A program made the position numbers and the translations under genes. Positions 12,058-57,339 of a DNA stretch of 64,000 nt are shown piece by piece. The DNA is from Exiguobacterium sp. J17977. Its GTDB lineage: Bacteria > Bacillota > Bacilli > Exiguobacteriales > Exiguobacteriaceae. The stretch spans positions 186,001-250,000 of the forward strand of contig NZ_JAEQBB010000001.1 of NCBI RefSeq assembly GCF_018616375.1, in the 5' to 3' direction. Numbering within the stretch: the stretch's first letter is position 1; the number at the start of each line of letters is the position of its first letter. The notes beneath the pieces were generated by a model that worked only from the letters and a program-made list of their open reading frames with translations, had not been told where the DNA came from and ran no database searches.

Positions 12058-13011
12058 ATGGAAGAGCAAAAGAAAAAGAGAGTCAAGAAACGCCGTAGAA
12101 AGAGTTCGCCCGCCAAACGTATCGCGATGATTGCGGGAATCGTAGTAGGGTTGTTCCTGCTCATCGGAGTCGGGGTGGCTACATACCTATATAATCAAGT
12201 CGATTCGACCGTCGAACGGTTGAACGAGTCGACGGGCCTTAGCCCGGAGCGCATGACGACAGAAGCCATCAACGATAAGAAGCCGATCTCGGTCCTTCTC
12301 CTCGGCGTCGACCGTCGTGCCGACGAGCAAGGTCGCAGCGACTCGATTATCGTCATGACGCTTAACCCGAACACGGATCAAAGCGCGATGCTTAGCATCC
12401 CGCGTGACACGAAGACGGAGATCGTCGGCAAAGAGACGTCTGACAAAATCAACCACGCCTATGCGTTCGGTGGAGCCGAGATGGCTCTCGACACGGTCGA
12501 GAACCTACTCGACATCCCAATCGATTACGTGGCTGAAGTTGATATGAAGGGCTTCCAAGACACGGTCGACCTGCTCGGCGGCGTCAACGTGACGAACAAC
12601 TTGGCGTTCACATCAGGTGAGCATACGTTCGAACCGGGCGCACTTACGCTCAACGGGTCAGAGGCGCTCGCTTACACGCGCATGCGCTATGACGACCCGA
12701 GCGGGGACTTCGGTCGCCAGGAGCGCCAACGTGACGTCATCACGGCGCTCGTCAATAAAGGCAAAGACGACTTCTCAATCTCGAAATTCAACAACATGCT
12801 CGACGTGCTCGGCAACAACGCCAAGACGAACATGACGTTCAAAGACATCCGCACGCTCTCGAGCGACTATATGGCCGCTTTCAAAAACCAGGACGTCCTT
12901 CGCCTCGAAGGAACGGGCGGGAAAGAAAGCGACGGCATCTATTACTGGAACCCGGACGCCGCTTCACTCGAAGACGTGAAGTCGTATCTCGGACAATTGA
13001 TGGAACAGTGA
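12058..13011 (+). CDS. LytR-CpsA-Psr (LCP) family transferase
   Basis: A 317-residue protein with a very basic cytoplasmic N-terminus (residues 1-22), one membrane helix (about 23-46) and an external LCP domain. The domain start is VLLLGVDRRADEQGRSDSI with the conserved Arg/Asp pair, then LSIPRDT and YTRMRYDDP with the substrate arginines. LCP enzymes move glycopolymers such as teichoic acid or capsule from undecaprenyl pyrophosphate to peptidoglycan. Start preceded by GAGGAAAGGTGTTATGTC. A close paralogue follows at 14034, with a YihY gene between. Confidence 0.9.
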   Translation: MEEQKKKRVKKRRRKSSPAKRIAMIAGIVVGLFLLIGVGVATYLYNQVDSTVERLNESTGLSPERMTTEAINDKKPISVLLLGVDRRADEQGRSDSIIVMTLNPNTDQSAMLSIPRDTKTEIVGKETSDKINHAYAFGGAEMALDTVENLLDIPIDYVAEVDMKGFQDTVDLLGGVNVTNNLAFTSGEHTFEPGALTLNGSEALAYTRMRYDDPSGDFGRQERQRDVITALVNKGKDDFSISKFNNMLDVLGNNAKTNMTFKDIRTLSSDYMAAFKNQDVLRLEGTGGKESDGIYYWNPDAASLEDVKSYLGQLMEQ

Positions 13012-13017
13012 CGGTTC

Positions 13018-13047
13018 GCCTCATCCAAAAATCGGATGGGGCGTTTT
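13018..13047 (+). terminator. Terminator after the first LCP gene
   Basis: GCCTCATCC (13018-13026) and GGATGGGGC (13034-13042) with one G-U pair, then GTTTT. Confidence 0.65.
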
Positions 13048-13084
13048 AATATGTGCGATAATAAATAGAAAAGGAGTGACCCGC

Positions 13085-13930
13085 GTGCTCGACCGCCTAA
13101 TCCGTCTCGTCATCGACGTCCGCCATCGGTTCAAGGACCATCATATTAACGACTATAGCGCGACGCTCGCGTTCTTTTGGTTTCTCGCCATCTTTCCGAC
13201 GTTCGTCCTCTTGTTCGCCGTCATGGCGTGGTTCGGGATTGACGACGCCTTGTTGATCGAACAGATCGAGATTCTCATCCCGGGCTCGAGCGTGCGGGAC
13301 ATGCTGTCAATCGTATATGACGTCAGCGGCAACATCAACGCCGGCCTCGTCTCAATCGGTGCCATCATTGCCGTCTGGTCGGCATCGAACGGGACGGCCC
13401 GCCTCGTCAAGCTGACCGTGTTCGCCTATGGGGAGACGGAAGCCCGGAGCTACGTCGTCCGTCGTTTGATTGGGTTACTCACGCTTATCGCCTTCAGCGT
13501 TGGTGCCGTCATCTTGATTGTGTTCCATATTTTTGGCCGTGAGTTCGTCGAGCTCATGTATACGTGGTTTCCACGGCTCGAGGACTTCGACCGTCTGGCG
13601 ACACTCACCCGGTATACGGTGTCGACGGTCATCCTCATCTTCGCGTTCTCGCTGTTCTATAAGATTGCCCCGCAGCAACGCGTACGTTTCATCGAGACGC
13701 TCCCAGGCGCCACCTTCGCCGTCATCTCCTGGCAGATGCTGTCGACGGGCTATAGCGTCTACGTCGACCAGTTCTCGATGTTCGGTGATACGTACGGGAC
13801 GATTGGGATCGTCATCTTGCTCCAGATTTGGCTCTACTTGACGGCTGCGACGATGTTGCTCGGTGCTGAAATCAACGCGGCTTGGCCTGACCATATGCGG
13901 CGCACACGGTATAAGGCACATTTCCCATGA
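13085..13930 (+). CDS. YihY/BrkB family inner membrane protein
   Basis: A 281-residue membrane protein with six hydrophobic helices and the family features HHINDYSATLAFFWFL near the N-terminus and YGTIGIVILLQIWLYLTAATMLLGAEIN near the C-terminus (quoted parts are conserved in YihY/BrkB). Once taken for ribonuclease BN, the family is now regarded as transporters or membrane factors of unknown substrate. I chose GTG 13085 because AAGGAG lies 8 nt before it; the GTG at 13076 overlaps that site. Confidence 0.85.
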   Translation: MLDRLIRLVIDVRHRFKDHHINDYSATLAFFWFLAIFPTFVLLFAVMAWFGIDDALLIEQIEILIPGSSVRDMLSIVYDVSGNINAGLVSIGAIIAVWSASNGTARLVKLTVFAYGETEARSYVVRRLIGLLTLIAFSVGAVILIVFHIFGREFVELMYTWFPRLEDFDRLATLTRYTVSTVILIFAFSLFYKIAPQQRVRFIETLPGATFAVISWQMLSTGYSVYVDQFSMFGDTYGTIGIVILLQIWLYLTAATMLLGAEINAAWPDHMRRTRYKAHFP

Positions 13931-13947
13931 AAATTGAAAAGATATGG

Positions 13948-13975
13948 TTAGCATTTTTTGACAACGTGCTATAAT
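13948..13975 (+). promoter_or_regulatory. SigA-type promoter of the second LCP gene
   Basis: TTAGCA (13948-13953), 16 nt, TATAAT (13970-13975) with an extended TGC before the -10. It lies 58 nt before the ATG. Confidence 0.65.
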
Positions 13976-14033
13976 ACAACACGTGAAGCGGGAATTATAT
14001 CCATATCTAACGATTTTGAAAGCAGGTGCACGC

Positions 14034-14957
14034 ATGGCGAGACATAAGAAGAAATCACGCTGGAAAAAAGTGTTGGCGATCACGCTCGGCGTTCTGACGA
14101 TTTTCCTCGTCGCCGGTGGTCTGTTCGTCTGGTCGATGTACCGGGACGTCAACGAGACGGTGACGAAAGTGAACGATAATCTTGAAATCAGTCCGGAACG
14201 GAAACAAGTCGAGACGATTGAACAGAAGGAATCGGTATCGGTGTTACTACTCGGGATTGACCGCCGTGACGGGGAGCAGGGACGGAGTGATTCAATCATC
14301 GTCATGACGCTCAACCCGACGACGGACGAAGGCGCGATGCTCAGCATCCCGCGCGATACGAAGACAGAAATCGTTGGCAAAGGTATGAACGATAAAATCA
14401 ACCATGCCTACGCGTTCGGTGGGGCTGAGATGGCGATGAACACGGTCGAAGGGTTACTCGATATTCCGATTGATTACGTCGTCGAGGCGGACATGGAGGC
14501 GTTCACCGAGGTCGTCGATGCGCTCGGTGGCATCACGGTAGAGAACAGCTTCGCGTTCTCGTCGGACGGTTACAACTATCCGATTGGCCAGGTCGATTTG
14601 AACGGTGCCTCGGCGTTGTCATACGCCCGCATGCGTTACGACGATCCGAACGGTGACTTCGGCCGCCAGGAGCGACAGCGCGCTGTCGTCGCGGCCATCG
14701 TCGAGAAGGGGCGCTCTGACTTCTCGGTCGACAAAGTGACGAAGCTGCTCGACGTCGCCGGCAACCGCGCCAAGACGAACATCGAGTTCAATGAGCTCGT
14801 GACGTTGTCGACAGACTATATGAAAGCGTTTCGTAACGCCAGCACGCTCCGAATCGAAGGTTCAGGTGGTCTCGAGTCCGACGGTATCTATTACTGGAAT
14901 CCGGATTCGGCCTCGCTCGCCGACGTCCAAGCCGAGCTGCAGCGATTGATGAACTAA
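14034..14957 (+). CDS. LytR-CpsA-Psr (LCP) family transferase
   Basis: A 307-residue paralogue of the protein at 12058-13011: basic N-terminus, one membrane helix (about residues 13-36), and an LCP domain with LLGIDRRDGEQGRSDS, LSIPRDTKTEIVG, INHAYAFGGAEMA and YARMRYDDPNGDFGRQERQR, split here as separate motifs. Same predicted role in attaching anionic polymers to the wall. I use ATG 14034, which follows AGCAGGTGCACGC; the open frame extends to 13983. It has its own promoter and terminator, so the two LCP genes can be regulated apart. Confidence 0.9.
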   Translation: MARHKKKSRWKKVLAITLGVLTIFLVAGGLFVWSMYRDVNETVTKVNDNLEISPERKQVETIEQKESVSVLLLGIDRRDGEQGRSDSIIVMTLNPTTDEGAMLSIPRDTKTEIVGKGMNDKINHAYAFGGAEMAMNTVEGLLDIPIDYVVEADMEAFTEVVDALGGITVENSFAFSSDGYNYPIGQVDLNGASALSYARMRYDDPNGDFGRQERQRAVVAAIVEKGRSDFSVDKVTKLLDVAGNRAKTNIEFNELVTLSTDYMKAFRNASTLRIEGSGGLESDGIYYWNPDSASLADVQAELQRLMN

Positions 14958-14984
14958 GTCATTCCTTATGGGATGGCTTTTTTT
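14957..14984 (+). terminator. Terminator after the second LCP gene
   Basis: AGTCATTCC (14957-14965) pairs with GGGATGGCT (14970-14978) with two G-U pairs, followed by a run of T. Confidence 0.75.
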
Positions 14985-15040
14985 GCGTTTGAAAATCGTG
15001 GTTCGGTGGGAGTGATAAAGAGACACTGAGGAGGGATATC

Positions 15041-16240
15041 ATGCTTTGGGAAACTGTTGAACCGATCATCAATCGATTAGAGGACGACCATACAGCAGAA
15101 GACTGGCAAGAGCTGTTTACGAAGTGGGACGGTCATCATTGGCACGACGGGGAAGGTGTGAGCGAGAAGACGAGCGTGCTCATGATCGACGCCAACGCCG
15201 TCACGACGGACGGGAGCCCGGATTTGGACGCGCTCCATGATCTGTTGAAGGAACACGTGCAGGCGTCCATCAGCGACTTGTATCTCGTCTCGCTGTTCCC
15301 ATACCCGGCCAAGCCGACCGATACGGCCATCAATCCGCGTATCCGACTGTATGAAGACCTCGGACGCTTCAAGCATGAGTTCGAACTCATGTACGATACG
15401 GAGCCGGACGTCTATAACGAGCTACAGTTTAATCTGCTCGAGGAGACGGACGGCTTCATCGAGCGGCTCGCCCAAGGTGCGACGAAGCTACGTGTCCACG
15501 TCCAGTCATTCCGCGGCATGCCCGAGCAGAGCATACGACGCGTCATCGAACTGTGGCACGTGGTGCTCCATCACTATAAACCGCACGGCCAGTTGATTCT
15601 CGCGTATGAAGGGGACGTGTCGGAGCTCGGCTCATACATCAGCGTCGCCGACGCCATCTGTCACTTCGACCTCGCGTCGCATACCATGCTCGCCTTCGCG
15701 CAAGGTGACGCGAAGAAATTGTCCGACTGGGCGAACCGGATCGAGACGCCAGAAGACGGCAAGACGTACTTCAACTTCTTGTCGATTCATGAGCGTGACC
15801 CGTTCGAGAAAAACTTGATTGAGCCGAGCGTCGACATGATTCTCGCCGCCCACAGCATCTTGTTCTCGCTGCAGGGCATCCCGGCCGTTGATTATCGGAC
15901 ACTGCTCGGTGTCCAGACACCGGTCGACCATGACGCGCTGATCCAAGAGCTGAAGACGGACCCGTATCGCCTGCAAGTATTCTCCGGCATCATCAGCCAG
16001 TTGAACGTCAAACGGACGCACCCGGCCTTTTCGCCGTATGTTGCACAGCGAATCGATACGTCCGATAAGCGCATCTTCACGGTCGAGCGGAAAAGTGAAG
16101 GGGAGAAGCTCATGTTGTATACGAACGTCAGCAATGAGCCCGTGACCGTTCGGACGGGCGGGACGAACCTGTTCACGGGTGAACCGGTCGAGACAATCGA
16201 CCTCGACGCCTACGGGTTTGTGTGGGTAAAATCTGAATAG
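15041..16240 (+). CDS. GH13 subfamily 18-like protein, catalytic residues apparently lost
   Basis: A 399-residue cytoplasmic protein. Its second half follows sucrose/glucosylglycerate phosphorylases (GH13_18): FNFLSIHERD for the family's FNFLASHDG, then GIPAVDY, LKTDPYRLQVF, RTHPAFSPY and NVSNEPV. But the usual RLDA nucleophile motif reads RVHV (residues 151-154, Asp replaced by His153), the ITETN acid/base motif reads ILAYE, and the HD pair reads HE (250-251). The region between FELMYDTEPD and the nucleophile motif is about 100 residues shorter than usual, removing domain B. It is therefore likely a pseudo-enzyme with a binding or regulatory role. Start ATG with GAGGAGGGATATC. Confidence 0.75.
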   Translation: MLWETVEPIINRLEDDHTAEDWQELFTKWDGHHWHDGEGVSEKTSVLMIDANAVTTDGSPDLDALHDLLKEHVQASISDLYLVSLFPYPAKPTDTAINPRIRLYEDLGRFKHEFELMYDTEPDVYNELQFNLLEETDGFIERLAQGATKLRVHVQSFRGMPEQSIRRVIELWHVVLHHYKPHGQLILAYEGDVSELGSYISVADAICHFDLASHTMLAFAQGDAKKLSDWANRIETPEDGKTYFNFLSIHERDPFEKNLIEPSVDMILAAHSILFSLQGIPAVDYRTLLGVQTPVDHDALIQELKTDPYRLQVFSGIISQLNVKRTHPAFSPYVAQRIDTSDKRIFTVERKSEGEKLMLYTNVSNEPVTVRTGGTNLFTGEPVETIDLDAYGFVWVKSE

Positions 16241-16365: not shown

Positions 16366-16716
16366 GTGAATCAGTCACTATTTATGCATGTGTTAAGCCT
16401 TACGTTTCATTCATTTTCGTATTGGATGTTCGCAACGCTATTCATTGCCTTAGCGGGCTATGTATTTTTCTACATGTGGGACCGTGAGTTTGCAATCGAG
16501 TACCGGACGATTTGGCGCAAGTTCTACTATTTGACGTTCGCAGCGTTCGTCTTGTTCGGCTTAATCGTCGGCGAGTTTACGTTCGACGCGGCATGGGGGC
16601 TAGCTGGCATCGCGATCGTGATTGCCGTCCTCGACTTCGGCGTGCTCGTCACACCAGGCAAAGAACCCGAAATTATTGAAGTGGACGTGACAAAACGGCT
16701 GACAGAAGAACCTTAA
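16366..16716 (+). CDS. Small membrane protein, 116 residues
   Basis: Three hydrophobic helices (about residues 10-35, 47-67 and 70-92) followed by a short acidic cytoplasmic tail. No family recognised. Translation starts at GTG 16366, with AAGGAG 9 nt upstream. The last codons are inside the left arm of the terminator. The promoter region carries a 10-bp inverted repeat with one arm on the Shine-Dalgarno, which suggests tight control of expression. Confidence 0.65.
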   Translation: MNQSLFMHVLSLTFHSFSYWMFATLFIALAGYVFFYMWDREFAIEYRTIWRKFYYLTFAAFVLFGLIVGEFTFDAAWGLAGIAIVIAVLDFGVLVTPGKEPEIIEVDVTKRLTEEP

Positions 16717-17788: not shown

Positions 17789-19021
17789 TTACTTTTCAGT
17801 TAAGCGCACCCGGGTCTGTCCGTTTGTGCCTTCAAATAAGCGGAGTGAATATGTCTCACTCTCGTAAACTACTGCATCGTCAGTTTCGAGGACTGGTTCG
17901 CCGAGCGGGCTGAATACCTCACGCGTCGTTTGTGTGTTCGTCCAATCGATGGCGTGTACTTTGTCGTCTTGGATTACGAAGAAACCGCCGTTATAAAACG
18001 CATAGGCGTTCAACGCATCTGTTTCACGACCATACGGCGCGTCGATGGTCTCCGTGAGTGCGGCTTCGTTCATAGCAAAGAAGTCAGGAATTGATTCACC
18101 GAGCCAATCGTTGTTCAAGTTCGTGTTCACCCAGTCGAGTAGGGCGCTGTCCGTCAAGTTGCGCGTCGGCCAGTCGGTCGTGACGGCGTCGAGTGGGGCC
18201 CATGCTGTCGTTCCATCCAGATTCACTTCGACATGATTGTCTTGTTCCTTCACAATCTCGTAACGGTCGCCGATATCTCCTATATAGGTGACTGTCGTGC
18301 CGTTCGGTTCTGAGACGAGATTGACGTTTTTCGATGCAAGCCAGACGTAATTCGTTTCCGGCTCTTGAACGACCGGTTCAGGATCAGGTTTCGGCGTTTC
18401 CTCGACGACTTTGGCTTCTTGTTTTGGCTCCAACAAGTCCATAACATATGGATACCCGATATAGCCACCTCCTATGAGTAAAGCGAAGAGTAAAAGGACG
18501 CCAATCCATTTGCCGGACTTACGTTTTGGTCGTGCTGGTTCAATGGTACGTTGGTACTTGGCTCGTTCCGCGCGTGATGGGACTGGCGCTTCCGGCATAT
18601 AACGTTGCTTTGTAACGGGTGGTTTTTCTTCCGCTTTCGGAGTTTCAACTACGGTTGGCTCAGGAACAGGTACCGATGCCTTGTCCTCGATTGGTGTCCC
18701 CTTGACGCCTGTCTTGTCAATCGGTGCGGATTGAGGAACCGTCGCTTCTTTGTTCAATACATTCTCATGCATCTCGAGTAAAGACACATAGTATGGAAGA
18801 AACGTGGCATCTTTCTTACCATCCTTGATCCAACCAGCGAAGTCTGACGCCGATTTTTCTTCGGTTGGGAGCGATGGCGCCGTCGTGCCGGTCAATTCTT
18901 CGAAGGACACGGTCAACGATTTCCCGTCCCCTAAATTTTGTTTAATGACATCTTGTAGTTTTGTACGTGTTGCCGCATTCGTATCTGCGTACAACTGGAG
19001 TAGGCGCTCACTAACGTGCAC
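17789..19021 (-). CDS. Single-pass membrane protein with an SH3-like external domain
   Basis: A 410-residue protein in three parts: a cytoplasmic N-terminal region of about 175 residues with a Pro/Glu-rich linker, one membrane helix (about 182-202), and an external part that begins with a Pro/Glu-rich stalk and an SH3b-like segment ([16 protein letters not shown], then WAPLDAV). SH3b domains usually bind cell wall. The rest is not recognised. GTG start with AAAGGAGGAGAC upstream. It is divergent from the exopolysaccharide operon and may take part in wall or polymer sensing; this is inferred from place and topology only. Confidence 0.75.
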
Positions 19022-46643: not shown

Positions 46644-47264
46644 TTATTTTTTATATGTTAGTATATCATTTATTAAATTTTCTCCTTCTTTACTGTCAAG
46701 AGATTCACTTAAGAAATCATATAGTACAGCTTTAGCTCTTGCTGTTATATGAGCCTCACTGTTCAAATCAAACATATCTATCGTATCTTTCCCTTTTATA
46801 GTTTTTTCTTGTAGTACTATTCCTAAACCTGAGCCGACATAGTCAAAGTGGTTGTTAGGATTATCAAAAAAGGGGTGATATATTTTAAAAACACACTGTT
46901 TGTAATTAGTATTTAACTGCAGTATAGGATCTACTGTGCCTTTTTTTATTGGTGAGTTACAAAGGTGGCAAGCTAAAACAAGGTTAAGAGGAGTAAAGGT
47001 GAATTCAATGTATTGTGGCCGTATTTTCCCTCCTTTTGGTGCAATATGTTCTAGTTCTGGAGATGATGTTTCGTTAAGTTTCAATCCACAGTATGCACAT
47101 TTAGAATCTTGTAATACCATAAGCTGTGATCTAAGTTGGGATTTCAACAACTTAATATTTTTGTTGGTTTTATCCCATTCTCCCTCCTTCCAGGGCTTAA
47201 TTTTCTTTAAGTGCCTTTTCACTGATTTAGAATATCTTGTTCGACCTTCGATATTAGGAATCAT
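46644..47264 (-). CDS. HNH endonuclease, Septu PtuB-like
   Basis: A 206-residue nuclease of the TIGR02646/PtuB kind. The zinc pairs are Cys56-x2-Cys59 (CAYCG) and Cys99-x2-Cys102 (ACHLCN); His73 in LEHIAPKGG and Asn103 are the HNH residues. In Septu systems PtuB pairs with the ATPase PtuA to stop phage growth by nicking nucleic acid. ATG 47264 overlaps the ATPase gene by 11 nt and has AAAGG 9 nt upstream. AT-rich like its partner. Confidence 0.82.
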   Translation of the reverse strand: MIPNIEGRTRYSKSVKRHLKKIKPWKEGEWDKTNKNIKLLKSQLRSQLMVLQDSKCAYCGLKLNETSSPELEHIAPKGGKIRPQYIEFTFTPLNLVLACHLCNSPIKKGTVDPILQLNTNYKQCVFKIYHPFFDNPNNHFDYVGSGLGIVLQEKTIKGKDTIDMFDLNSEAHITARAKAVLYDFLSESLDSKEGENLINDILTYKK

Positions 47265-48720
47265 GGCTCAAATACCTTTCTACTTCAAGTATCAAAAGGT
47301 TGATTGGATCATTTTGATCTACAATATAGGAGTTGATTTTTGATTTTAAAAAAATGATTCTGTTATAATCTTTGGATTTCACTTTTATTAAATTTACTAA
47401 TTCTCTTAATTCAACTTCAAAATATAAATTTCTAGTAGTCCTAACACCAAAAACATTGTACAAAATGTTTTCTGCTGATAATCCGTAAGTGTCGAAATCT
47501 AATAATGTTGCTTCACGTCTTAGTTCCCTATCTTCTCGAAATAATTTTAAATGGACTAACGAAGAAGAATCACTTTCTAAATCTGAAACCAGATAATGTG
47601 AATGTGTTGCCATTACAAAATGGCAACTTTTCATTTTTTTGAAGATTTTTTTCAAAGTATCAATATAATTTATTTGCCAATTTGGGTGGAGGCTTAGTTC
47701 AGGCTCATCGATAAGGACTAAAGAATTTTCCTCCAATTCGGCAGCAATATTTATTAAGGTGAATAATAAATGTTTTTCGCCAGAAGAGGCATACTCGAAT
47801 TCAAAATCATCATCCTTATAAAACTTTAGAATAGGGGATTTAATCAACTTTAACTCAATTAATTTTAATAAAATTTTATAATCTTCTGATAAGTAATCTC
47901 TATCTAAAGAAGAGTTTCGAAAATCGATTGAAAATTCTAAACAAGTTTTATTGTTTAACTTTATTCTAGTTCTTCTTTTTGAAATAGTGTTTATATAGTG
48001 TTCGATTTCATGAATGTCTTCTTCCGTATATTTTCTTATTGAATCTGATCGGTAATCATTTTTTTCTATGAATGTGTCTATTTTATTTTTCAATGTGGAA
48101 TAGGGTAATTTTCTGGAGAATAGAGTTTTATTAACAGGTTCGAACAAAATAGAAACTCTAGAGTCAAACTTCATAAAAGTGAAAATGTCATTTAGGTTTT
48201 CAATAAAGTTCATATTTTCAGCATTGAGTATTAAATTATTTGCTACTCTGTTGATTATTGATGTAGTCCAAGTGGCATTTGAAGTTCTTCGAATCCCCAA
48301 ATACCTATAGATTTCGTTTTTTCTAGAGTCGTAAGGAGAAAAAGTGAATTTATCATTTACCATAAATGAAGTTGCTAGTACTTTTAACGGTAAATTAACT
48401 TGGCTAATATCGACCCGTAAATGATTTTTAAATGCACTTATTTGTTTGTTTATAATTTCAATTTTAAATTTATCGTTAGAGATATAGTATTCTAAATGAT
48501 ACTCATCATAGCTCAATGAAATATCACTTTTTCGAGTGGAATAGTCGAGACTTCGAAGTATTTCAGAAATAATTGTTAGTAAATAACTTTTACCAGCCCC
48601 GTTCTCTCCGATAATTACGGTTGAGAGAGGTTTATTTCTTTCGATAAGGTTATTTGTAAAAGTTACATCGAAAATATAACTTTTATTTTTTATGACTTGT
48701 AATTTAGTTAAAGTAAACAC
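47254..48720 (-). CDS. ABC/SMC-like ATPase, Septu PtuA-like
   Basis: A 488-residue ATPase. Walker A IIGENGAGKSY (about residues 37-46), the ABC signature YASSGEKHL near 310, Walker B LVLIDEPELSLHP near 330 and the H-loop MATHSHYLVS near 365. The stretch between Walker A and the signature is variable, as in OLD/PtuA-type proteins. With the HNH gene in second place this is a two-gene Septu-like defence system. GTG start, AAAGGAG 10 nt upstream. Strongly AT-rich against its neighbours on both sides, suggesting horizontal transfer. Confidence 0.82.
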   Translation of the reverse strand: MFTLTKLQVIKNKSYIFDVTFTNNLIERNKPLSTVIIGENGAGKSYLLTIISEILRSLDYSTRKSDISLSYDEYHLEYYISNDKFKIEIINKQISAFKNHLRVDISQVNLPLKVLATSFMVNDKFTFSPYDSRKNEIYRYLGIRRTSNATWTTSIINRVANNLILNAENMNFIENLNDIFTFMKFDSRVSILFEPVNKTLFSRKLPYSTLKNKIDTFIEKNDYRSDSIRKYTEEDIHEIEHYINTISKRRTRIKLNNKTCLEFSIDFRNSSLDRDYLSEDYKILLKLIELKLIKSPILKFYKDDDFEFEYASSGEKHLLFTLINIAAELEENSLVLIDEPELSLHPNWQINYIDTLKKIFKKMKSCHFVMATHSHYLVSDLESDSSSLVHLKLFREDRELRREATLLDFDTYGLSAENILYNVFGVRTTRNLYFEVELRELVNLIKVKSKDYNRIIFLKSKINSYIVDQNDPINLLILEVERYLSHDS

Positions 48721-48772
48721 TCTAAATAATCTCCTTTGATATTCTTATGTTTATTTCAGGAACCATATTAAG

Positions 48773-48798
48773 TACAAGTATAAAAAATAATACTTGTA
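48773..48798. repeat. Perfect palindrome upstream of the Septu-like operon
   Basis: TACAAGTAT (48773-48781), 8-nt loop, ATACTTGTA (48790-48798). It sits about 55 nt before the ATPase start and has no U-run in the leftward direction, so it looks like an operator rather than a terminator. Confidence 0.45.
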
Positions 48799-48825
48799 AA
48801 AAAGAAAAAAATTATACGCAATTGT

Positions 48826-50169
48826 TTAAATAGAATTTGAATTAATATCAATACTATAGAGCTTATTTAACACATCGGTCACTGTCTCACTGAACGAGCG
48901 GAACGACGAATCGTCGATGAGTGATGTCATCGCATCTTTTACGACAGCTGCGTTTGTCCAATCGGAGACGTCGGTCGTCTCAGTATAAATGCGCGTGAAC
49001 TTCTTACCTTCTTGTTTCCCAGACTTCCAAAACGAGATGTTTTGCGCTTCGAGTGCTTCTAGGAGCGGGAGACGTTCGGTGTAGTCAATCGGTCCGACCT
49101 CGACATAAAGTTTGAGGCGCTTGCTGCCTTTTCGTTCGAACCAGATAATCAGTCCATAGTTGAGCCAATAGCGGTTCAACCGGTCCATCTGTTCTAAATT
49201 CGTCAACCAATCATTCATAACAAAGTTGGGTACACGGGGATGGGCCGAATATGTCGTTATCCCTTGTTCTTTCACAAACTCTAGAAATGCCTGACGGACG
49301 AGATCACTTCCCGTCTCGAAGATATAGTCGATGGTCTGGCACTTTCGATTATAGATGAGGAGCAAGTGACGCTTTGTCTCAGCGTCGAACGTGGCGAGCG
49401 TCTTCACCGCTTGGCGGAGTTCGATTTGTTTATGCTTCGCCGGATTGGCATTGGCATACAATAAGTGAATTGCAGATGCATAATCTTGATACAGTTGTAG
49501 CGCCGTCTCCATTGTCTTTTCGTCATCTACGAGTCGTTCTTCGAGCAGGGCGACATAGTATGATAAGAAATCGTGAATGTTGTCGGCAATTGTCGCTTTG
49601 TTCAATGTCAGCTCTTGTTTGATGATGTGGAGTACGTCTTCATACGTTAACATCCAGTATGCATCGTGCGATGGCGTATCACCTGACAACGTCAAAAAGA
49701 CAGGGAGAACGTGCCATTCTGGATAGTATTCCTTGACGTTTGTTAAATAACGAGCCAACTGACCTGCTGATTCAACTGAATGTACTTTGTTTTCGATAAG
49801 TAGGACGATGTTCAAAGTCGGAATTTCAATGAGCAAGTCGACCGCGCCATTCCCATTGGTGGACCACTCGCGGTGGACAACGATATCGGATAATGATGCA
49901 TGAGCGAATGATAGATAGGGGAACTCATCAATTTTATTATCGTTATCGGCTCTCGTTACAAGATTCATGAGTACTTTGCGTAAGAAAAAGCTTCCGAGCC
50001 GATGATTCTCGTTCGGGTCGAACAACCAAGCGAGGACGTTCGAATGACGAATTTCGTATTTAGCGACGCGGAGTACTTTGAATGGGTTGAACTCATTGAA
50101 TTGTTGATCAAGTTTATTGAATTCAGGCGTATTTTCAAGCTGTAAGATGGTGTCGAGTGAGTAGGTCAT
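48826..50169 (-). CDS. PD-(D/E)XK nuclease family protein
   Basis: A 447-residue protein of the PDDEXK_4-like type. The core is Asp111 in GAVDLLIEI, then Glu126-x-Lys128 in LLIENKVHS, and Gln137-x3-Tyr141 in GQLARYL, the RecB-type helix motif. So the catalytic centre appears complete. The C-terminal 250 residues are helical and then mixed, without a known domain. ATG 50169 is preceded by AAAGGAGTTCTT; it lies 16 nt after the 501-residue gene. Third gene of a compact leftward operon, likely its nuclease effector. Confidence 0.8.
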   Translation of the reverse strand: MTYSLDTILQLENTPEFNKLDQQFNEFNPFKVLRVAKYEIRHSNVLAWLFDPNENHRLGSFFLRKVLMNLVTRADNDNKIDEFPYLSFAHASLSDIVVHREWSTNGNGAVDLLIEIPTLNIVLLIENKVHSVESAGQLARYLTNVKEYYPEWHVLPVFLTLSGDTPSHDAYWMLTYEDVLHIIKQELTLNKATIADNIHDFLSYYVALLEERLVDDEKTMETALQLYQDYASAIHLLYANANPAKHKQIELRQAVKTLATFDAETKRHLLLIYNRKCQTIDYIFETGSDLVRQAFLEFVKEQGITTYSAHPRVPNFVMNDWLTNLEQMDRLNRYWLNYGLIIWFERKGSKRLKLYVEVGPIDYTERLPLLEALEAQNISFWKSGKQEGKKFTRIYTETTDVSDWTNAAVVKDAMTSLIDDSSFRSFSETVTDVLNKLYSIDINSNSI

Positions 50170-50185
50170 AAGAACTCCTTTATCA

Positions 50186-51691
50186 TCAATATTCGCCGCT
50201 AAGCTTCTTCCATTCTTGCTCAAGGTGGGCATCAACTGCTTTCCAGTCGTACACGTCTTTCCCGAGCACATGCTTCAGTTCTTGCATTGAGGCGAACGCG
50301 AAGCGGCTCCAGGCGACGTAGTTCAAACGCGTCGCAAATAAAATCGGGACGTTGCCACTTCGGATATAGGCGTCCATTCCATCGGTCAGGCACAGAGCGC
50401 CATGGCCCACGAGCAACATCTTCCGAAGTGTCGGCTTATTGCCAATGGGAATCGAGGCGAGCCAGCCGTTCTTGTGATAAAACAGGCTCTTCAAGCCCCA
50501 AAGCAGGCGAATGACGAGTTCGTTGAAGACGACCGGTACCGCCATCGCGACACCGTGACGCGCATCATAGCCGCTCTCGAACACTTTTGTCGAGAAGTCG
50601 GCGAACGAGAGCTTCTGTTCGTTATGCGACACTTGTCCAAAATCGGCGAATTGGAACAGTTCAAAGAACGGAAGCGGGATACCGGCGCCGCGACGACCGT
50701 TGTCGTGTCCGCGCACACCACTTGACCCTGATACGTCAGATAAGAGATGACCAAACCAGTTGGCAAACCCGGCGAACAGTTTAGCTAGTAGATTGCCACC
50801 TTGTAGCCTTTGCGTACCGTCTTCTTTCGGCTCGAGTCGAAGCAGTCGACCGTCCGAGACGAAGCTTGCCTTGCCAGTGAACTGATCCAAAATCGAGAAG
50901 AATAAGCCGATGATGTCCGGAGCGTGGGCGAGCGATTTCAAATGGTGGTCCGACGGACGCATATTCAGTGTCGAGTCACCCATCTTCAAATCTTGTGCGT
51001 AACGTGCGTCATAATTCACTTTGAAGCGGCGCTCCAAAAAACCGATGGCGCTCGCAATCGAATCCGGTTGCTTGCGAAGGCGGGCCCCGTTCTGTTTATC
51101 TTGTTTCCAGACGAGGTTCGCGAACTTGATGACGACGTTGTCGACCTTCTCATCTGACCACTTCCCGAGTTTACTGTCCGTCGGGGAGCCGACGAAGAAA
51201 CTGTCAATCAACCCAGCGACGAGACCGCTGAAGGACGCGATCATGTAGTCGTAGCGGTCACATTCCGCTTCCTTCAGCAAGAACTTTTCTTTGAACGTCG
51301 TCGCCAACTCATGACGCTGTCGTGCCGTCAACAGATGGGCGAACGGATCATTGAGCCCCGTCACATCATGTCGCGTCGCATACGTATCGAGTTCGGACAA
51401 ATACATATCCCAAGAGCCGTCCGAGACTTGCACGGGTTCCAAGTCATCGAACGTCCGTACGGCCAGCGGCGCCAATTGCGGTGCTGCTGTTTGTGGTACC
51501 TGTCCATTCATGAGTCGCATCATATCCTCGAACAAATTGTCGAGCACTGCCGATTGAGCGTCTTGCGCGTCTTCAAGTTGATTCAAGTGTCCATGGATGT
51601 CACCTAAACGTTGCTCAGCCTGTGCGGCTTGATGTTGTTGGACGAGTAACGCTTTTGCCTGATTAATCATGTCTTGATTGGACCGGTTCAT
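50186..51691 (-). CDS. Unrecognised 501-residue protein of the accessory cassette
   Basis: No family recognised. The first 55 residues are a Gln/Ala-rich coiled-coil; residues about 130-240 and 300-470 are helical with moderately hydrophobic stretches (ASFSGLVAGLIDSFFVG, LLAKLFAGFANWFGHLL, VVFNELVIRLLWGL). A region near residue 335 has GVRGHDNGRRGAG. No signal peptide. Its ATG overlaps the stop of the PH/TerB-like gene by 4 nt and the nuclease gene follows after 16 nt, so the three products are probably made in fixed ratio and may form one complex. Confidence 0.75.
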   Translation of the reverse strand: MNRSNQDMINQAKALLVQQHQAAQAEQRLGDIHGHLNQLEDAQDAQSAVLDNLFEDMMRLMNGQVPQTAAPQLAPLAVRTFDDLEPVQVSDGSWDMYLSELDTYATRHDVTGLNDPFAHLLTARQRHELATTFKEKFLLKEAECDRYDYMIASFSGLVAGLIDSFFVGSPTDSKLGKWSDEKVDNVVIKFANLVWKQDKQNGARLRKQPDSIASAIGFLERRFKVNYDARYAQDLKMGDSTLNMRPSDHHLKSLAHAPDIIGLFFSILDQFTGKASFVSDGRLLRLEPKEDGTQRLQGGNLLAKLFAGFANWFGHLLSDVSGSSGVRGHDNGRRGAGIPLPFFELFQFADFGQVSHNEQKLSFADFSTKVFESGYDARHGVAMAVPVVFNELVIRLLWGLKSLFYHKNGWLASIPIGNKPTLRKMLLVGHGALCLTDGMDAYIRSGNVPILFATRLNYVAWSRFAFASMQELKHVLGKDVYDWKAVDAHLEQEWKKLSGEY

Positions 51692-53376
51692 TTGTCACCG
51701 AAGACGTTCTTCACGAGACGCTTCGCCCCACCAGTTACTTCGGCCAGACCGCCGCCGGACATTTCAAAGTAACCGATCGCTTGGAACGATTCATGTAACT
51801 GTTCCAATTCTTCAAGGGTGAGCGTCTCTTTCAAGACGAGCTCTTCCTCGGAACTGAACGTCAAATCATCGAGCTGGATTGGTTGCGGCGCATAACACGC
51901 ATACACGTAGTCGCGTAGTTTCTGATACGTCGGTTTCGACGTCAACTCGTCCAACCGAACGGTGCTCAATTTCGGAGGCAGTTGCGTGATGATTTGTTCT
52001 TTTTGAGAGTGGACTTGTTTGTCGGCGCTGAACTGTGCACTCTGACTGAGCATCTGCAACATATTCGAGAGTTGATTGATTTTCTCCGAGTTGGCGTTCC
52101 CGTGTTGGATGGCCACGACGAGACGGTTTGAAATCTCATTGATGTCCTCAAGCAGGCAGTTGAGCGTCTGTTGCGTATTGCGGATGATGGCCTGTAGCAT
52201 GAACTCGCGCTGTTTGTTGTTCTCAATGTCTTTCATGCCCGTGATTTTTTTCAAGCCCTGGTACGTGCCGACGCCGATGACGACCAACACGCCGATGCCC
52301 GTGAACATGCTTGAGAAGCCGAGGAGTCCACCCATGCCGAGGGAGGCCAGACCAGACGTCAATCCGGCAGCGCTCAAGCCGACGACCGATCCTGATAAAT
52401 AGATGGCTGTGAGCGGAACGCCGACCGCGGCCGCTTTGGCTGCCAAGTCTTTCATCGACTTGGCAATCTCTGAGTCGTTTTTGCGGAATGTCAAAATGTC
52501 CTCGTCGCTTTGGATGGCGCTTGAGATGAGTTCGATTTCTTCGCGTGAGATGGAGAGCACTTCTTTCAACTCGCCAAGAAACTTGTTCTCGAACCAAGCC
52601 GAAAGCGGACGTTTCAATTTGAAGAGATAGAGAAGGTCTTTGAATAACGATTTCTCGACGATGGAAAAGTCGATGGTCGTCGACAAGTCGCGTAACTCGT
52701 CAATCAACGTGAGTGTTGGTGCATGTTCGGCTGGATTACTCAAGTAGGCGCGAAGTTGCAACCGATAGTCCGAACTGAGGTGGATGCGGGTGACGAGTGA
52801 CATCAGTTCGCTATACTCTTGAGCGTCAATCTGTTGATCATCGACGAACGTGAAGTTGGCCAACACTTTCAAGTACGTGAGCTTATACGTTTCCGGCAAG
52901 TCGGCGAGCGGGGTGACTTGTGAGACGTTGACGAGCTCGTCTTCTTTGTCTTTTAACGCGGCGATCCCGTTCAATAGCTCGACGACGCCTTCGACGTTAT
53001 ACGTGGCGAGTTTGTCGGACAGACTGTAGTCATATTGCTCGGTGTGCATGACGATGTGAAGTTTCTCTTTTCGCTTATCATTTTTATACGTAACTTCACG
53101 GTCCAACTCGACGCGCTGCAAATCTTTGTAGTAGACGCAAATCGGTTTTTCGAGCAACGGTTTGAAATAGAAGCGGTCTCCTAAAAATAGCATGCCTTCT
53201 TTGCCGCTCTTGAAGAGCGTCGAATCATACAAGGCAACAACGTGTTCTGGGAGCGCGTCCTCTGCGTAATTCTTAATGGCTCCGTTCAATTTTTTGTCGG
53301 GTACGCTCGGTGCGATATGTGTGCCGTCACCAAGTAAGGTGTTGGCGTATTCTTTCAAATATGTATTAATGTTCAT
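51688..53376 (-). CDS. Membrane protein with PH-like and TerB-like regions
   Basis: A 562-residue protein. Residues about 45-120 look like a PH/GRAM-type beta domain (GMLFLGDRFYF, CVYYKDLQRVEL, KLHIVMHTEQYDYSL). Residues 167-212 resemble a TerB helical repeat (YLKVLANFTFVDD, IDAQEYSELMSLV). A long Gly/Ala-rich hydrophobic hairpin spans 312-372, and the rest is helical with a final Gly-rich segment. Both domain calls are from pattern and need a profile search. ATG 53376 has AAGGTGA 7 nt upstream. It heads the operon with the 501-residue and nuclease genes and could sense membrane damage. Confidence 0.75.
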   Translation of the reverse strand: MNINTYLKEYANTLLGDGTHIAPSVPDKKLNGAIKNYAEDALPEHVVALYDSTLFKSGKEGMLFLGDRFYFKPLLEKPICVYYKDLQRVELDREVTYKNDKRKEKLHIVMHTEQYDYSLSDKLATYNVEGVVELLNGIAALKDKEDELVNVSQVTPLADLPETYKLTYLKVLANFTFVDDQQIDAQEYSELMSLVTRIHLSSDYRLQLRAYLSNPAEHAPTLTLIDELRDLSTTIDFSIVEKSLFKDLLYLFKLKRPLSAWFENKFLGELKEVLSISREEIELISSAIQSDEDILTFRKNDSEIAKSMKDLAAKAAAVGVPLTAIYLSGSVVGLSAAGLTSGLASLGMGGLLGFSSMFTGIGVLVVIGVGTYQGLKKITGMKDIENNKQREFMLQAIIRNTQQTLNCLLEDINEISNRLVVAIQHGNANSEKINQLSNMLQMLSQSAQFSADKQVHSQKEQIITQLPPKLSTVRLDELTSKPTYQKLRDYVYACYAPQPIQLDDLTFSSEEELVLKETLTLEELEQLHESFQAIGYFEMSGGGLAEVTGGAKRLVKNVFGDK

Positions 53377-53482
53377 CAACTATCACCTTCCATATATTGT
53401 TTATACAGTTATTATATACTTATAGAGTGTACGAGGTAGGGAAAATATTCTAACTGGTAATCGAGTGTAGGGAGCGACAGAT

Positions 53483-54661
53483 ATGATGATGATGTACATA
53501 TTGATGATTGGATTAAGTGGGGGCGTGGCCGTCCTCTTGTTCCGAGCAGGACGTGTTGCTAGACTCGTCCATCGGGCATTACGGCGAGAACTTCATACCA
53601 TCCACGATGAATTGAAACAGGCAGAGCATCACCCGGCCCGACAGTTCGAACTGCTCGATCCTCTCTATCGAAAAGTCGTGTTTCAAATCCACTCACAAGT
53701 GAAGATGAAACGAACTGACTTGGAGCAACTGGTCAGCGATGAGTTGAATCGGTTGATCAAAAACAAACGCTCGGCCATCTGGTCTTATGTGACTGTGACC
53801 GGGTGGAGCGTGTTGGCGTTAATGATGTTAAGCATTTGCCTAGTCGGCGGGTATGCAGCCTATCATGAGGCGCAAACGATGGATTGGCCCGGTTCAACAC
53901 AAGTGGCGAGTTCGTCGGCCACCATCCTTGACGAGACGTTCGAGTTGCCGGCGCAAGTCGCATTATCAGAGGAACTCGGTCAGGCGCTCGCTTACCACAT
54001 GAGTCAATTCGATGAAACGTTCAGCATCAGTTATATTGGCAAGAGTCGAGACTTTGAACAGACGATGGACGAGGCGTGGGACTGGCTCGAGATGAACCAT
54101 ATTTACGTGTTCCGCCTGTCACGCGGTGGAGAGACCGAATATCGCGATCATGGCGGTTATGTCGACCTGGACGTCGAGTTGGCTTACGATATGAACATCG
54201 AGGAAGCGAAACAGATTGAGGCAAGAGTCGACCAAGTCGTCGCCGAGATGCCGGTCGGATTGAGCGACTTTGAGAAAGTGAAATACATAAACGATTATGT
54301 TGTCTTGAACACGGCCTACAATTTAGACAGCCAAGCGAGTCCATATACGCCATATTCGATTCTGTTTAATGGGGAAGGCGTGTGCGAAGGGTATGCGTTG
54401 ACGACACTCTTGTTGTTGGAAGCCGCAGGTGTGGAAGCGAAGTATATCTCTGGCGAGGTCCAGACCGGGTTACACGCATGGAATCTCGTGAAGCTCGACG
54501 GCGCTTGGTATCACTTGGACACGACGTGGAACGATCCCGTCCCGAATCGAGTGGGTGAGATCGGTTACGATTATTTCTTAGTATCCGATGCGACATTAGA
54601 GCAAGATCATGAGTGGGAAGCAAATGATTATCCGATTACCGCGAAGACAGATTTCTTGTAA
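53483..54661 (+). CDS. Membrane-anchored transglutaminase-like protein
   Basis: A 392-residue protein. Two membrane helices (about residues 5-21 and 101-125) enclose a basic cytoplasmic loop of 80 residues; the rest is outside. The C-terminal domain is of the transglutaminase/cysteine-protease fold, with the Cys in GVCEGYA, His in LHAWNLV and Asp in YHLDTTWND. Such domains in Bacilli cross-link or cleave proteins at the surface. It is divergent from the leftward cassette with 106 nt between them, so the two may share control. GGGAG lies 8 nt before the ATG. Confidence 0.8.
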   Translation: MMMMYILMIGLSGGVAVLLFRAGRVARLVHRALRRELHTIHDELKQAEHHPARQFELLDPLYRKVVFQIHSQVKMKRTDLEQLVSDELNRLIKNKRSAIWSYVTVTGWSVLALMMLSICLVGGYAAYHEAQTMDWPGSTQVASSSATILDETFELPAQVALSEELGQALAYHMSQFDETFSISYIGKSRDFEQTMDEAWDWLEMNHIYVFRLSRGGETEYRDHGGYVDLDVELAYDMNIEEAKQIEARVDQVVAEMPVGLSDFEKVKYINDYVVLNTAYNLDSQASPYTPYSILFNGEGVCEGYALTTLLLLEAAGVEAKYISGEVQTGLHAWNLVKLDGAWYHLDTTWNDPVPNRVGEIGYDYFLVSDATLEQDHEWEANDYPITAKTDFL

Positions 54662-54901
54662 GCGAAGAGTGGATTCGACAGAGATGCAATCTCAAAAGAA
54701 ACGCGATGGGGCTTGGCTAAGCATATAGCTGCCTGATCGTGTTTTTTGATGACCCAATATTTACGAAACTATAAAAACATCTCCCCCTTTAACAAAAAAG
54801 TGCCTGCATCCAAGCTGTATAATCCTTATACTAACAAAGAAATAGTGAATTTGGTTTTATATTCCAACATGTGAAAATAGTGAGCGGGAGTGAAGAATGA
54901 T
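54662..54901 (+). other. Gap with weak hairpin and promoter-like -10
   Basis: A 240-nt gap. An imperfect hairpin followed by TTTTTT ends at about 54747 and may terminate the transglutaminase-like gene. TATAAT at 54818-54823 may be the -10 for the next pair of genes, without a clear -35. Confidence 0.4.
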
Positions 54902-55741
54902 ATGTTAAATCGCAAATTCCGAGAGGATTCCATCGAAACGTATAAACAAGCAGAACGTGCTTACGAAACAGCCAAGATTGATGTCATAAAAGCTTCAGAG
55001 GAATTGTTTGGTGAGCGGAAACGGTTGAAATCCATCATTGGTTTTAACTGGGACGCTATTAATCAACTCAAGAACAAAACTGTCGAAATGGAACTTGAGG
55101 TCGATAAAATTGAAATCGAATACAGACGTTTCGATACATTCTTGTTAGAGGTACAAACCGAAATTGCGGCTACGCAAAAGATGGTATCTACAGCAGAGAC
55201 GATTGCTATGAGCGCCGCTACAATCAGCATGACACCCAGCACGGCTGCGGCAATCGCCACCACGTTCCGAACTGTTTCAACTGGGGCAGCGATCAGCGGT
55301 AGCTTGGCCGCAAACGCCTCGATGGCTTGGTTAGGAGGAAGTGTGTTGGCAACAGGTGGTGGACTAGCCGTCGGAAGTGGATTGATGGGCTTGGCAGGAC
55401 CGGTTGGGTGGGGTATTTTGATTGCTGCTAGCGTTTTTCAAAACGGAAAGAATAAAAAACTCGGACGTGAGGCTTTAGAAAAAGCGACAGTCTTGAAAAA
55501 AGAACGAGTTTCACTAAAAGGGAATGAAAAAGAGGTTAGTGAACTGAGTAAGTTAACGGTTCAGAACCGCGTGGGATTAAATCGCTTATTGAATGAGATT
55601 GAGCCGAAACTTGATGCGTATGGTTGGGATATGCGCAGAATTGATCAAGACCAAGATTTATTAGAACGGCTTGGGGTTTTGATTAACACATTGGGAAGTG
55701 CATCCAAACTATTGAACAAGAAAGTGGGTGGTGCGGTATGA
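54902..55741 (+). CDS. Coiled-coil protein with Ala/Gly-rich membrane hairpin
   Basis: A 279-residue protein. Residues 1-95 form a charged coiled-coil, residues about 105-185 a hydrophobic Ala/Gly/Thr-rich hairpin (SMAWLGGSVLATGGGLAVGSG, shown in part), and residues 190-270 a second coiled-coil. The layout is like pore-forming or membrane-inserting proteins but no family is recognised. I prefer ATG 54902, with GGGAG 11 nt upstream, over GTG 54890. It overlaps the HNH-type gene by 4 nt, so they are translated together. Confidence 0.7.
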   Translation: MLNRKFREDSIETYKQAERAYETAKIDVIKASEELFGERKRLKSIIGFNWDAINQLKNKTVEMELEVDKIEIEYRRFDTFLLEVQTEIAATQKMVSTAETIAMSAATISMTPSTAAAIATTFRTVSTGAAISGSLAANASMAWLGGSVLATGGGLAVGSGLMGLAGPVGWGILIAASVFQNGKNKKLGREALEKATVLKKERVSLKGNEKEVSELSKLTVQNRVGLNRLLNEIEPKLDAYGWDMRRIDQDQDLLERLGVLINTLGSASKLLNKKVGGAV

Positions 55742-57339
55742 GTCAGGCATTTACCGAATCGCTTCAAACTAATTTTGATATCGATTTGAATGAGTCACCG
55801 AAATTGGAGGAATCTCACCTTCAAATTTTGATGAAGCAATATAAAGAGATCGCTTTCACAAAAGTCATTCAAGAATTCGGGCTCGGTCCATTTTTGAACG
55901 ATTACCAAAATGGCGGGAACGTGACGACACTCCATAACGCGAAAGAAGGCGTTTTTACCAACGATAAAGATAAAGAAATAGAAAATCGTTTCTCTCGAGA
56001 ATATTCTAAAAAAACACGTAATGACATATATGAGAAAGATTTTTCGAAGATGCGCGCAAAGGAATTTAAAGAAAGTGATTCCATTACGGATGCATATACA
56101 GGTCGGACATTGAACAAAGATGGACAAGCCCACCGTGACCATGTCGTGTCGGCTTCGGAAATTCATCAAAACGATGAGGCCCGTCTCTATATGACCGACG
56201 AAGAACGAGGCAAGATGGCAGTCGATGAGCAGAACTTGGCCTGGACGAACGGAAGCCTCAATCAGTCAAAAGGGGACAAGGATTTTAAAGTCTGGCTCGA
56301 TTCACCGAACCCGAAAGACCCGACTCAGACGAACCGAGACCGCTATGGCGTGGACGAACAGGCTGCGATGGAGAAATATATCGAGGCCAAGAAACATGTC
56401 AAAAAGTCCGTCACGAAAGCGAAACACACCTACTATGCAAAGAATCTGGCGAAAACTGGAGCGAGCCAAGGACTACGGGTCGGAGCGAAACAAGCGATTG
56501 GGCTGTTTCTCTACGAGTTGCAACACATCTTGTTCAAGGAGCTAAAGGGATTCTTCAAGTCGTTTAAACAGTTCACGAATTGGGACGCGCGGATTGAAGC
56601 GTTCAAACAATGTTTAGAGCGTGTCTATGTTCATATGATGCAACAGATGAAGCGGTTTGCCACAGCGTTCAAAGACGGCTTCATCGGTGGGTTTATGGGG
56701 AATCTGTTGACGGTGTTCATCAACACGTTCATGACGACGTCGAAGAATTTGGCGCGTCTGATCAATGACGGTGTGACCGGGTTATGGAGTGCGTTCAAGT
56801 TGTTGTGCCAACCACCCGAAGGCATGACGTCGCAGACGGCCATCAAAGAAGCGACAAAGCTCGTCGTCGCAGCGGTGGCAACGACCGTCGGCGTATTATT
56901 GACAGAGTCATTCGTGACGTATCTACAAACAACACCGTTCGCAATGTTTGCCCAATTGATTGGTGGATTGATTGGCGGAATCCTGACCGGTATCGTCGTG
57001 GCCACGTTGATGTATGCAATTGATGAATTGGTCGCTTCGCTCCATAAATTGAATGAGTTGATGGATACGTTCAAAGAAGGGTTATATACGAATGCGGAGC
57101 AGGTGCGCGCCACATATGAGGCTGCGATCGCGATGATGCATGTAGAGTATCAGGCGGTGCTTCAAACCATCTTCCGACAATATGAGGAGTACCGACGGCT
57201 TTCGGCAATCGCCTTTGATGAAACGGAGCGAGTGAGCGTGCGTCTCGATGCGAGTGCCGAGTTGGCGGATTTACTCGACGTGCCGACGGATGATGTCATG
57301 CGGAATGCGGATGATGTCCGAAACTTTTTAAGAAGTTGA
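55738..57339 (+). CDS. HNH-type nuclease with C-terminal membrane domain
   Basis: A 533-residue protein. Residues about 115-180 carry a cysteine-free HNH-like core: DAYTGRTL, RDHVVSASEIH (Asp134, His135) and NLAWTNGSLNQSKGD (Asn166, Asn175, Lys178). The second half is amphipathic and hydrophobic, with membrane-like stretches near 305-330 and 370-435 (TIGVLL-like and IGGLIGGILTGIV). A nuclease joined to a membrane domain, translated with a membrane-hairpin partner, suggests a defence or toxin effector that acts at the membrane. Function is inferred from motifs only. Confidence 0.72.
   Translation: MSQAFTESLQTNFDIDLNESPKLEESHLQILMKQYKEIAFTKVIQEFGLGPFLNDYQNGGNVTTLHNAKEGVFTNDKDKEIENRFSREYSKKTRNDIYEKDFSKMRAKEFKESDSITDAYTGRTLNKDGQAHRDHVVSASEIHQNDEARLYMTDEERGKMAVDEQNLAWTNGSLNQSKGDKDFKVWLDSPNPKDPTQTNRDRYGVDEQAAMEKYIEAKKHVKKSVTKAKHTYYAKNLAKTGASQGLRVGAKQAIGLFLYELQHILFKELKGFFKSFKQFTNWDARIEAFKQCLERVYVHMMQQMKRFATAFKDGFIGGFMGNLLTVFINTFMTTSKNLARLINDGVTGLWSAFKLLCQPPEGMTSQTAIKEATKLVVAAVATTVGVLLTESFVTYLQTTPFAMFAQLIGGLIGGILTGIVVATLMYAIDELVASLHKLNELMDTFKEGLYTNAEQVRATYEAAIAMMHVEYQAVLQTIFRQYEEYRRLSAIAFDETERVSVRLDASAELADLLDVPTDDVMRNADDVRNFLRS

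Follow-up and report, generated by a model that had tools for sequence, protein, structure and literature searches.

A GH13_18-derived pseudoenzyme with replaced catalytic residues, conserved in an Exiguobacterium genus

Results

Descent from a GGaP-type GH13_18 phosphorylase

The window, a 64,000-nucleotide stretch of the Exiguobacterium sp. J17977 genome (contig NZ_JAEQBB010000001.1), encodes a 399-aa protein that is descended from GH13_18 phosphorylases, yet is not a working member of GH13_18, because the catalytic triad and the subsite features were looked for and were absent. Few enzyme families are larger than GH13, in which the inactive members known best, such as 4F2hc, come from animals; here, a bacterial lineage has turned a GH13_18 phosphorylase into a protein that is dead for GH13 chemistry and fixed in every sampled species. 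We lean toward a neofunctionalized pseudoenzyme with a non-catalytic binding or scaffold role. The earlier note on this DNA had proposed a pseudo-enzyme with replaced catalytic residues, a description upheld by sequence homology, the tree, the predicted structure, residue conservation, and dN/dS. As it had also observed, the frame is fully open and preceded by a good ribosome site; the ORF is intact from its ATG start and the gene is single-copy in its own genome (Table 1). No signal or membrane segment is visible, and the protein is probably cytosolic. Six named relatives are all from Exiguobacterium (57-94% identity), and no report of the protein was found in the open-access literature.

Profile-profile comparison (hhalign) of the pseudoenzyme family with nine proteins of the 2-O-glucosylglycerate phosphorylase (GGaP; GH13_18, EC 2.4.1.352) type aligned residues 18-399 (E 8.4e-51, 100%), with identities to these relatives of 25-32%; the alignment noticed earlier for the C-terminal half is thus real, but is not limited to that half. 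A 547-aa protein in one relative (G010) aligned along the whole length in three pieces (31-38%) and has intact GH13_18 features (RLDA, ITETN, HDGIG, and the YELN loop); its gene neighbors encode a GH38 glycosidase, PTS EIIABC, an RpiR-like regulator, and a glycerate kinase. Published marks of GGaP are the TETN motif, the loop-A Glu, and a glycerate kinase neighbor (PMC7178133). In the tree, the 19 short proteins grouped as a single clade (support 100/100) next to GGaP-type enzymes, on a long stem (2.54 changes per column) and with the G010 enzyme as closest neighbor, at a support (91/80) that is not decisive. The pseudoenzyme thus descends from a GGaP-type member of the GH13_18 phosphorylases. 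Single-sequence searches of Pfam, NCBIfam, and PDB gave no match above threshold; a match to MutL weakened from E 0.008 with the single sequence to 0.11 with the profile and was dismissed as chance.

Table 1. Features of the pseudoenzyme locus and of a defense-like cluster, in window coordinates.
Feature	Position	Strand	Remarks
LCP (TagU-type) glycopolymer transferase gene	13983..14957	+	directly upstream of pseudoenzyme, 19/19 genomes
Terminator-like hairpin and T run, closing LCP gene	14956..14984	+	fold z -4.3
Candidate promoter-like element GTTT-N17-GGGA	14987..15011	+	equal spacing in 17/19 orthologues
Ribosome binding site AGGAGGG	15029..15035	+	kept in orthologues
Pseudoenzyme gene, GH13_18-derived, 399 aa	15041..16240	+	barrel approx. 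residues 38-327, domain C approx. 328-399
His153 codon, nucleophile Asp (D223) position	15497..15499	+	invariant 19/19
Ala188 codon, acid/base Glu (E265) position	15602..15604	+	invariant 19/19
ERDPFEKNL (251-259), longest invariant run	15791..15817	+	Glu251 at transition-state Asp (D332), 19/19
Septu PtuA/PtuB	46644-48720		PADLOC
PDC-S26	48826-50271		PADLOC
BnzA/BnzB	50186-53379		PADLOC
PDC-M09A/M40B-like genes	54890-57339		PADLOC

Predicted fold and missing parts

AlphaFold modeling from the 19 orthologues only gave pLDDT 78 and pTM 0.80, with Z-scores of 23-27 to GH13; when the nine GGaP relatives were added, pLDDT rose to 88 and pTM to 0.89, with five models alike (86-88), although the GH13 likeness of this second model is partly guided by the GGaP sequences in its alignment, which the first model lacked. 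All eight barrel strands were predicted (residues 46-50, 79-83, 115-120, 147-153, 184-188, 205-207, 242-246, and 280-284), as was a C-terminal beta domain (domain C). When this second model was compared by VIA-align, the highest Z-score to a GH13 enzyme was 32.6; the GH13_18 structures 6s9v and 9j25 scored 29.3 and 29.2 (313-315 residues aligned), and the human CD98hc/4F2hc ectodomain scored 28.2 (334 residues). Homology to GH13_18 was thus found in both sequence and predicted fold (barrel plus domain C), and the placement as GH13_18-like made in the earlier note is borne out by the profile alignment, the tree, and these Z-scores of about 29 to GH13_18 structures. A viral fold library returned generic barrel matches only, and no other enzyme family was matched by sequence or fold.

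In the model, the (beta/alpha)8 barrel is complete, and the missing residues are those of domain B and of loops that cover the active site. It had been proposed that domain B and about 100 residues of the barrel were lost; domain B is indeed absent, but the loss relative to GGaP is ~150 residues (399 vs 547 aa) and comes from domain B and the lid loops, with eight strands predicted to be present. Besides domain B, the deletions remove the ‘DGFSVxDY’ loop of beta-2, the beta-7 loop, and the ‘RRINRE’ loop that follows beta-8, and they shorten the loops of beta-4 and beta-5/6; domain B and the lid loops for subsites -1/+1 are absent in 19/19.

Replacement of the active site

Conservation was compared between ten GGaP-type proteins, numbered as in G010, and the 19 pseudoenzymes. 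Among the 135 columns invariant in the enzymes, 40 are deleted in the pseudoenzymes, nearly all within domain B and the lid loops, 19 are kept, and 22 have been replaced by another residue, which is likewise invariant in all 19. The catalytic triad of Asp (beta4), Glu (beta5), and Asp (beta7) is gone (Table 1), and the replacements agree with those read earlier from the single sequence, namely His153 for the nucleophile Asp, an altered acid/base Glu motif (E265 is now Ala188), and HE in place of the HD pair (His250-Glu251 in the window protein); His153 and Glu251 are each invariant, but His250 varies among orthologues (A/H/P/Q/R). Other changed columns include Tyr53 to Asp50, Tyr288-Gln289 to Cys207-His208, Tyr417 to Asp284, and His419 to Arg286, whereas Arg151, two residues ahead of the nucleophile position, is kept. 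The invariant Glu256 and Asn258 occupy the GGaP loop-A ‘YELN’ positions, so the loop-A Glu of GGaP is present; the (T/S)ETN motif is absent, and the GGaP acceptor Asn (N267 in G010, corresponding by motif position to Meiothermus silvanus Asn275 of PMC7178133) is Asp or Glu. GGaP phosphorolysis of glucosylglycerate is predicted to be absent.

Extra conservation of the modeled barrel mouth over the remaining barrel is suggestive: 26/56 mouth positions were invariant under one definition (one-sided p=0.008) and 22/56 under the first definition tried (two-sided p=0.20), both tests ignoring relatedness and the result depending on the definition of the mouth.

Active sites of TIM-barrel enzymes lie at the C-terminal ends of the barrel strands, and several of the 22 fixed-but-different positions are at such strand ends in the predicted barrel. 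The new invariant polar residues at the barrel mouth might make up a complete active site, and the protein might be an enzyme with a new chemistry, its site formed by the invariant His153, His208, Asp210, Glu251, Asp284, and Arg286, perhaps with a metal. We regard this as unlikely, though the strongest of the alternatives: loop 251-259 is invariant, and a fixed set of His, Asp, and Glu could equally serve catalysis, but the parts that usually shut the site, the lid and domain B, are lost, the matches point to no other enzyme family, and the clustering of these residues in space is predicted from strand ends only.

Distribution and selection

Orthologues were found in 19/19 genomes of the genus, down to 52% identity, and in 0/19 genomes of the sister genus of the same family. 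The short form was seen in no other sampled member of the Bacilli or of the phylum; matches in the class and phylum samples proved to be open frames of greater length, fragments at contig edges, or short segments from other proteins of GH13. Viral contigs gave no match, and plasmids only full-length relatives of the ‘sugar phosphorylase’ type (22-26% identity). A GGaP-type enzyme occurs in 1/38 genomes of the family and a sucrose-phosphorylase-like enzyme in 1/38, so that 17/19 species have the pseudoenzyme without an active GH13_18 partner. In one species, the pseudoenzyme occurs together with an active-looking relative, ~7 kb apart.

This distribution bears on a role as a modulator of carbohydrate metabolism that would still bind a former substrate or product (glucosylglycerate, glycerate, or glucose 1-phosphate) without cleavage. 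The invariant loop-A Glu256 and Asn258 are in keeping with it, substitution of the GGaP Glu equivalent to Glu256 being known to lower activity (PMC7178133); however, glucose subsite -1 is destroyed, with the triad replaced and the DGFSVxDY loop, domain B, and RRINRE loop deleted, the acceptor Asn has become Asp or Glu, and in 17/19 species there is no active GH13_18 enzyme to modulate, which leaves this role improbable.

Ten orthologue pairs gave dN/dS of 0.05-0.12 (Nei-Gojobori; some synonymous distances near saturation), and these values, with the presence of the gene in every genome of the genus, confirm that it is kept by selection, as had been supposed, the selection being purifying. A decaying remnant without function, which the loss of all catalytic residues and the long stem branch could suggest, is rejected on the dN/dS as highly improbable, the more so as the frame is intact in 19/19 and the promoter-like element and ribosome site are conserved. 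Since the same replacement residues are kept in every species, the protein has probably taken on a new job.

In G010, the GGaP gene and its neighbors (RpiR-like, PTS EIIABC, GH38, and glycerate kinase) make up an apparent mannosyl/glucosylglycerate use operon (L068, 10124-19347) that stands just downstream of the G010 pseudoenzyme and cpsB. A full-length glycerate kinase is present in the other 18/18 genomes of the genus; in the genome of the window, only a 66-residue remnant matched the glycerate kinase model TIGR00045, at a site outside the window (G000:C1:103300-103488).

Genomic context

The gap between the LCP gene and the pseudoenzyme gene is roughly 80-100 bp in all 19 genomes, and because a terminator-like hairpin follows the LCP gene, the pseudoenzyme probably has its own transcript. 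The GTTT of the candidate promoter is conserved in 19/19, and, judged by sequence alone, the GTTT-N17-GGGA element fits the sigma-B consensus GTTTAA-N15(+/-2)-GGGTAT (PMC9847131), making it a candidate sigma-B-like promoter. SigB is encoded in the genome (413 bits; cut-off 315), and GTTT-N15-GGGA stands upstream of its rsbV-like gene; a genome-wide scan with a related sigma-B pattern was noisy, giving 161 hits vs 103 in the reversed control. No sigma-A promoter was found upstream by consensus scan.

Downstream, the genes vary among species: cpsB, galE, or the gene of a small membrane protein. The locus runs on into putative exopolysaccharide genes (Wzz/Wze/CpsB/GalU-type by sequence similarity) in the window and in several relatives, whereas four species have only cpsB. 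The link to exopolysaccharide is weak because these downstream genes are not conserved. At the same locus in a sister-genus genome (G037), the LCP gene adjoins the same exopolysaccharide genes, without YihY, the second LCP gene, or the pseudoenzyme.

Several other features of the window were recorded. Two LCP paralogues flank a YihY gene (12058-14957) in many, though not all, species of the genus, whereas G037, the one sister-genus genome examined here, has a single LCP gene at the locus. Beside the pseudoenzyme, a 116-aa membrane-like protein (16366-16716) matched no Pfam or NCBIfam model, nor did a 410-aa protein (17789-19021) that adjoins the exopolysaccharide genes in the sister-genus genome as well. 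A defense-like gene cluster was identified with PADLOC models at 46644-57339 (Table 1); the pseudoenzyme protein itself matches no PADLOC defense model.

Discussion

Sequence, predicted fold, and selection show or strongly support that the pseudoenzyme goes back to a GH13_18 phosphorylase of the GGaP type, present in an ancestor from which one Exiguobacterium genus descends. The triad, the lid loops, and domain B were lost, and a new polar set (Asp50, His153, Cys207/His208/Asp210, Glu251-Leu259, and Asp284/Arg286) became fixed at the barrel mouth. In the favored non-catalytic binding or scaffold role, the protein would be cytosolic and lack glycosidase or phosphorylase chemistry, and its open, remodeled barrel mouth may bind a ligand (sugar or sugar-phosphate) or a protein partner. 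It would be expressed from its own stress-type (sigma-B-like) promoter and could act as a sensor or scaffold, possibly tied to exopolysaccharide or wall-glycopolymer assembly; an envelope-polymer role is suggested because an LCP gene precedes the pseudoenzyme gene in all 19 genomes and, in the window, exopolysaccharide genes border it. More speculatively, the residues fixed after triad loss (His153, His208, Asp210, Glu251-Leu259, Asp284, and Arg286) might form a new invariant catalytic or sensory site, conferring a new activity or signaling role that the general stress response would control and that would be linked to the assembly of envelope polysaccharides. Because both forms occur in one species, how an enzyme became a non-enzyme can be tested directly in a bacterium that grows in culture.

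Among known systems, GGaP shares with the pseudoenzyme the barrel and domain C, full-length homology, and the retained Arg151, loop-A Glu256, and Asn258; in contrast to GGaP, the pseudoenzyme has no nucleophile, acid/base, stabilizer, or (T/S)ETN motif, lacks domain B, the beta-7 lid, and the RRINRE loop, and is ~150 residues shorter. Sucrose 6F-phosphate phosphorylase (6s9v) and glucosylglycerol phosphorylase (9j25) have the same fold as the predicted pseudoenzyme, but are active enzymes with triad and lid intact. The nearest analogue is the ectodomain of 4F2hc/CD98hc (SLC3A2), which has a GH13 fold without domain B and in which the catalytic residues are not conserved (PMC8537225); the two proteins are about the same size, with a GH13 barrel and domain C, no domain B, and no triad. 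Unlike the pseudoenzyme, 4F2hc is an animal protein that serves, anchored in the membrane, as the heavy subunit of amino acid transporters, whereas no transmembrane segment was seen in the pseudoenzyme and no transporter gene in its immediate neighborhood. 4F2hc is not from GH13_18, and the pseudoenzyme arose from a different GH13 branch; the likeness would be one of convergence, by which the pseudoenzyme looks like a bacterial counterpart of the 4F2hc ectodomain.
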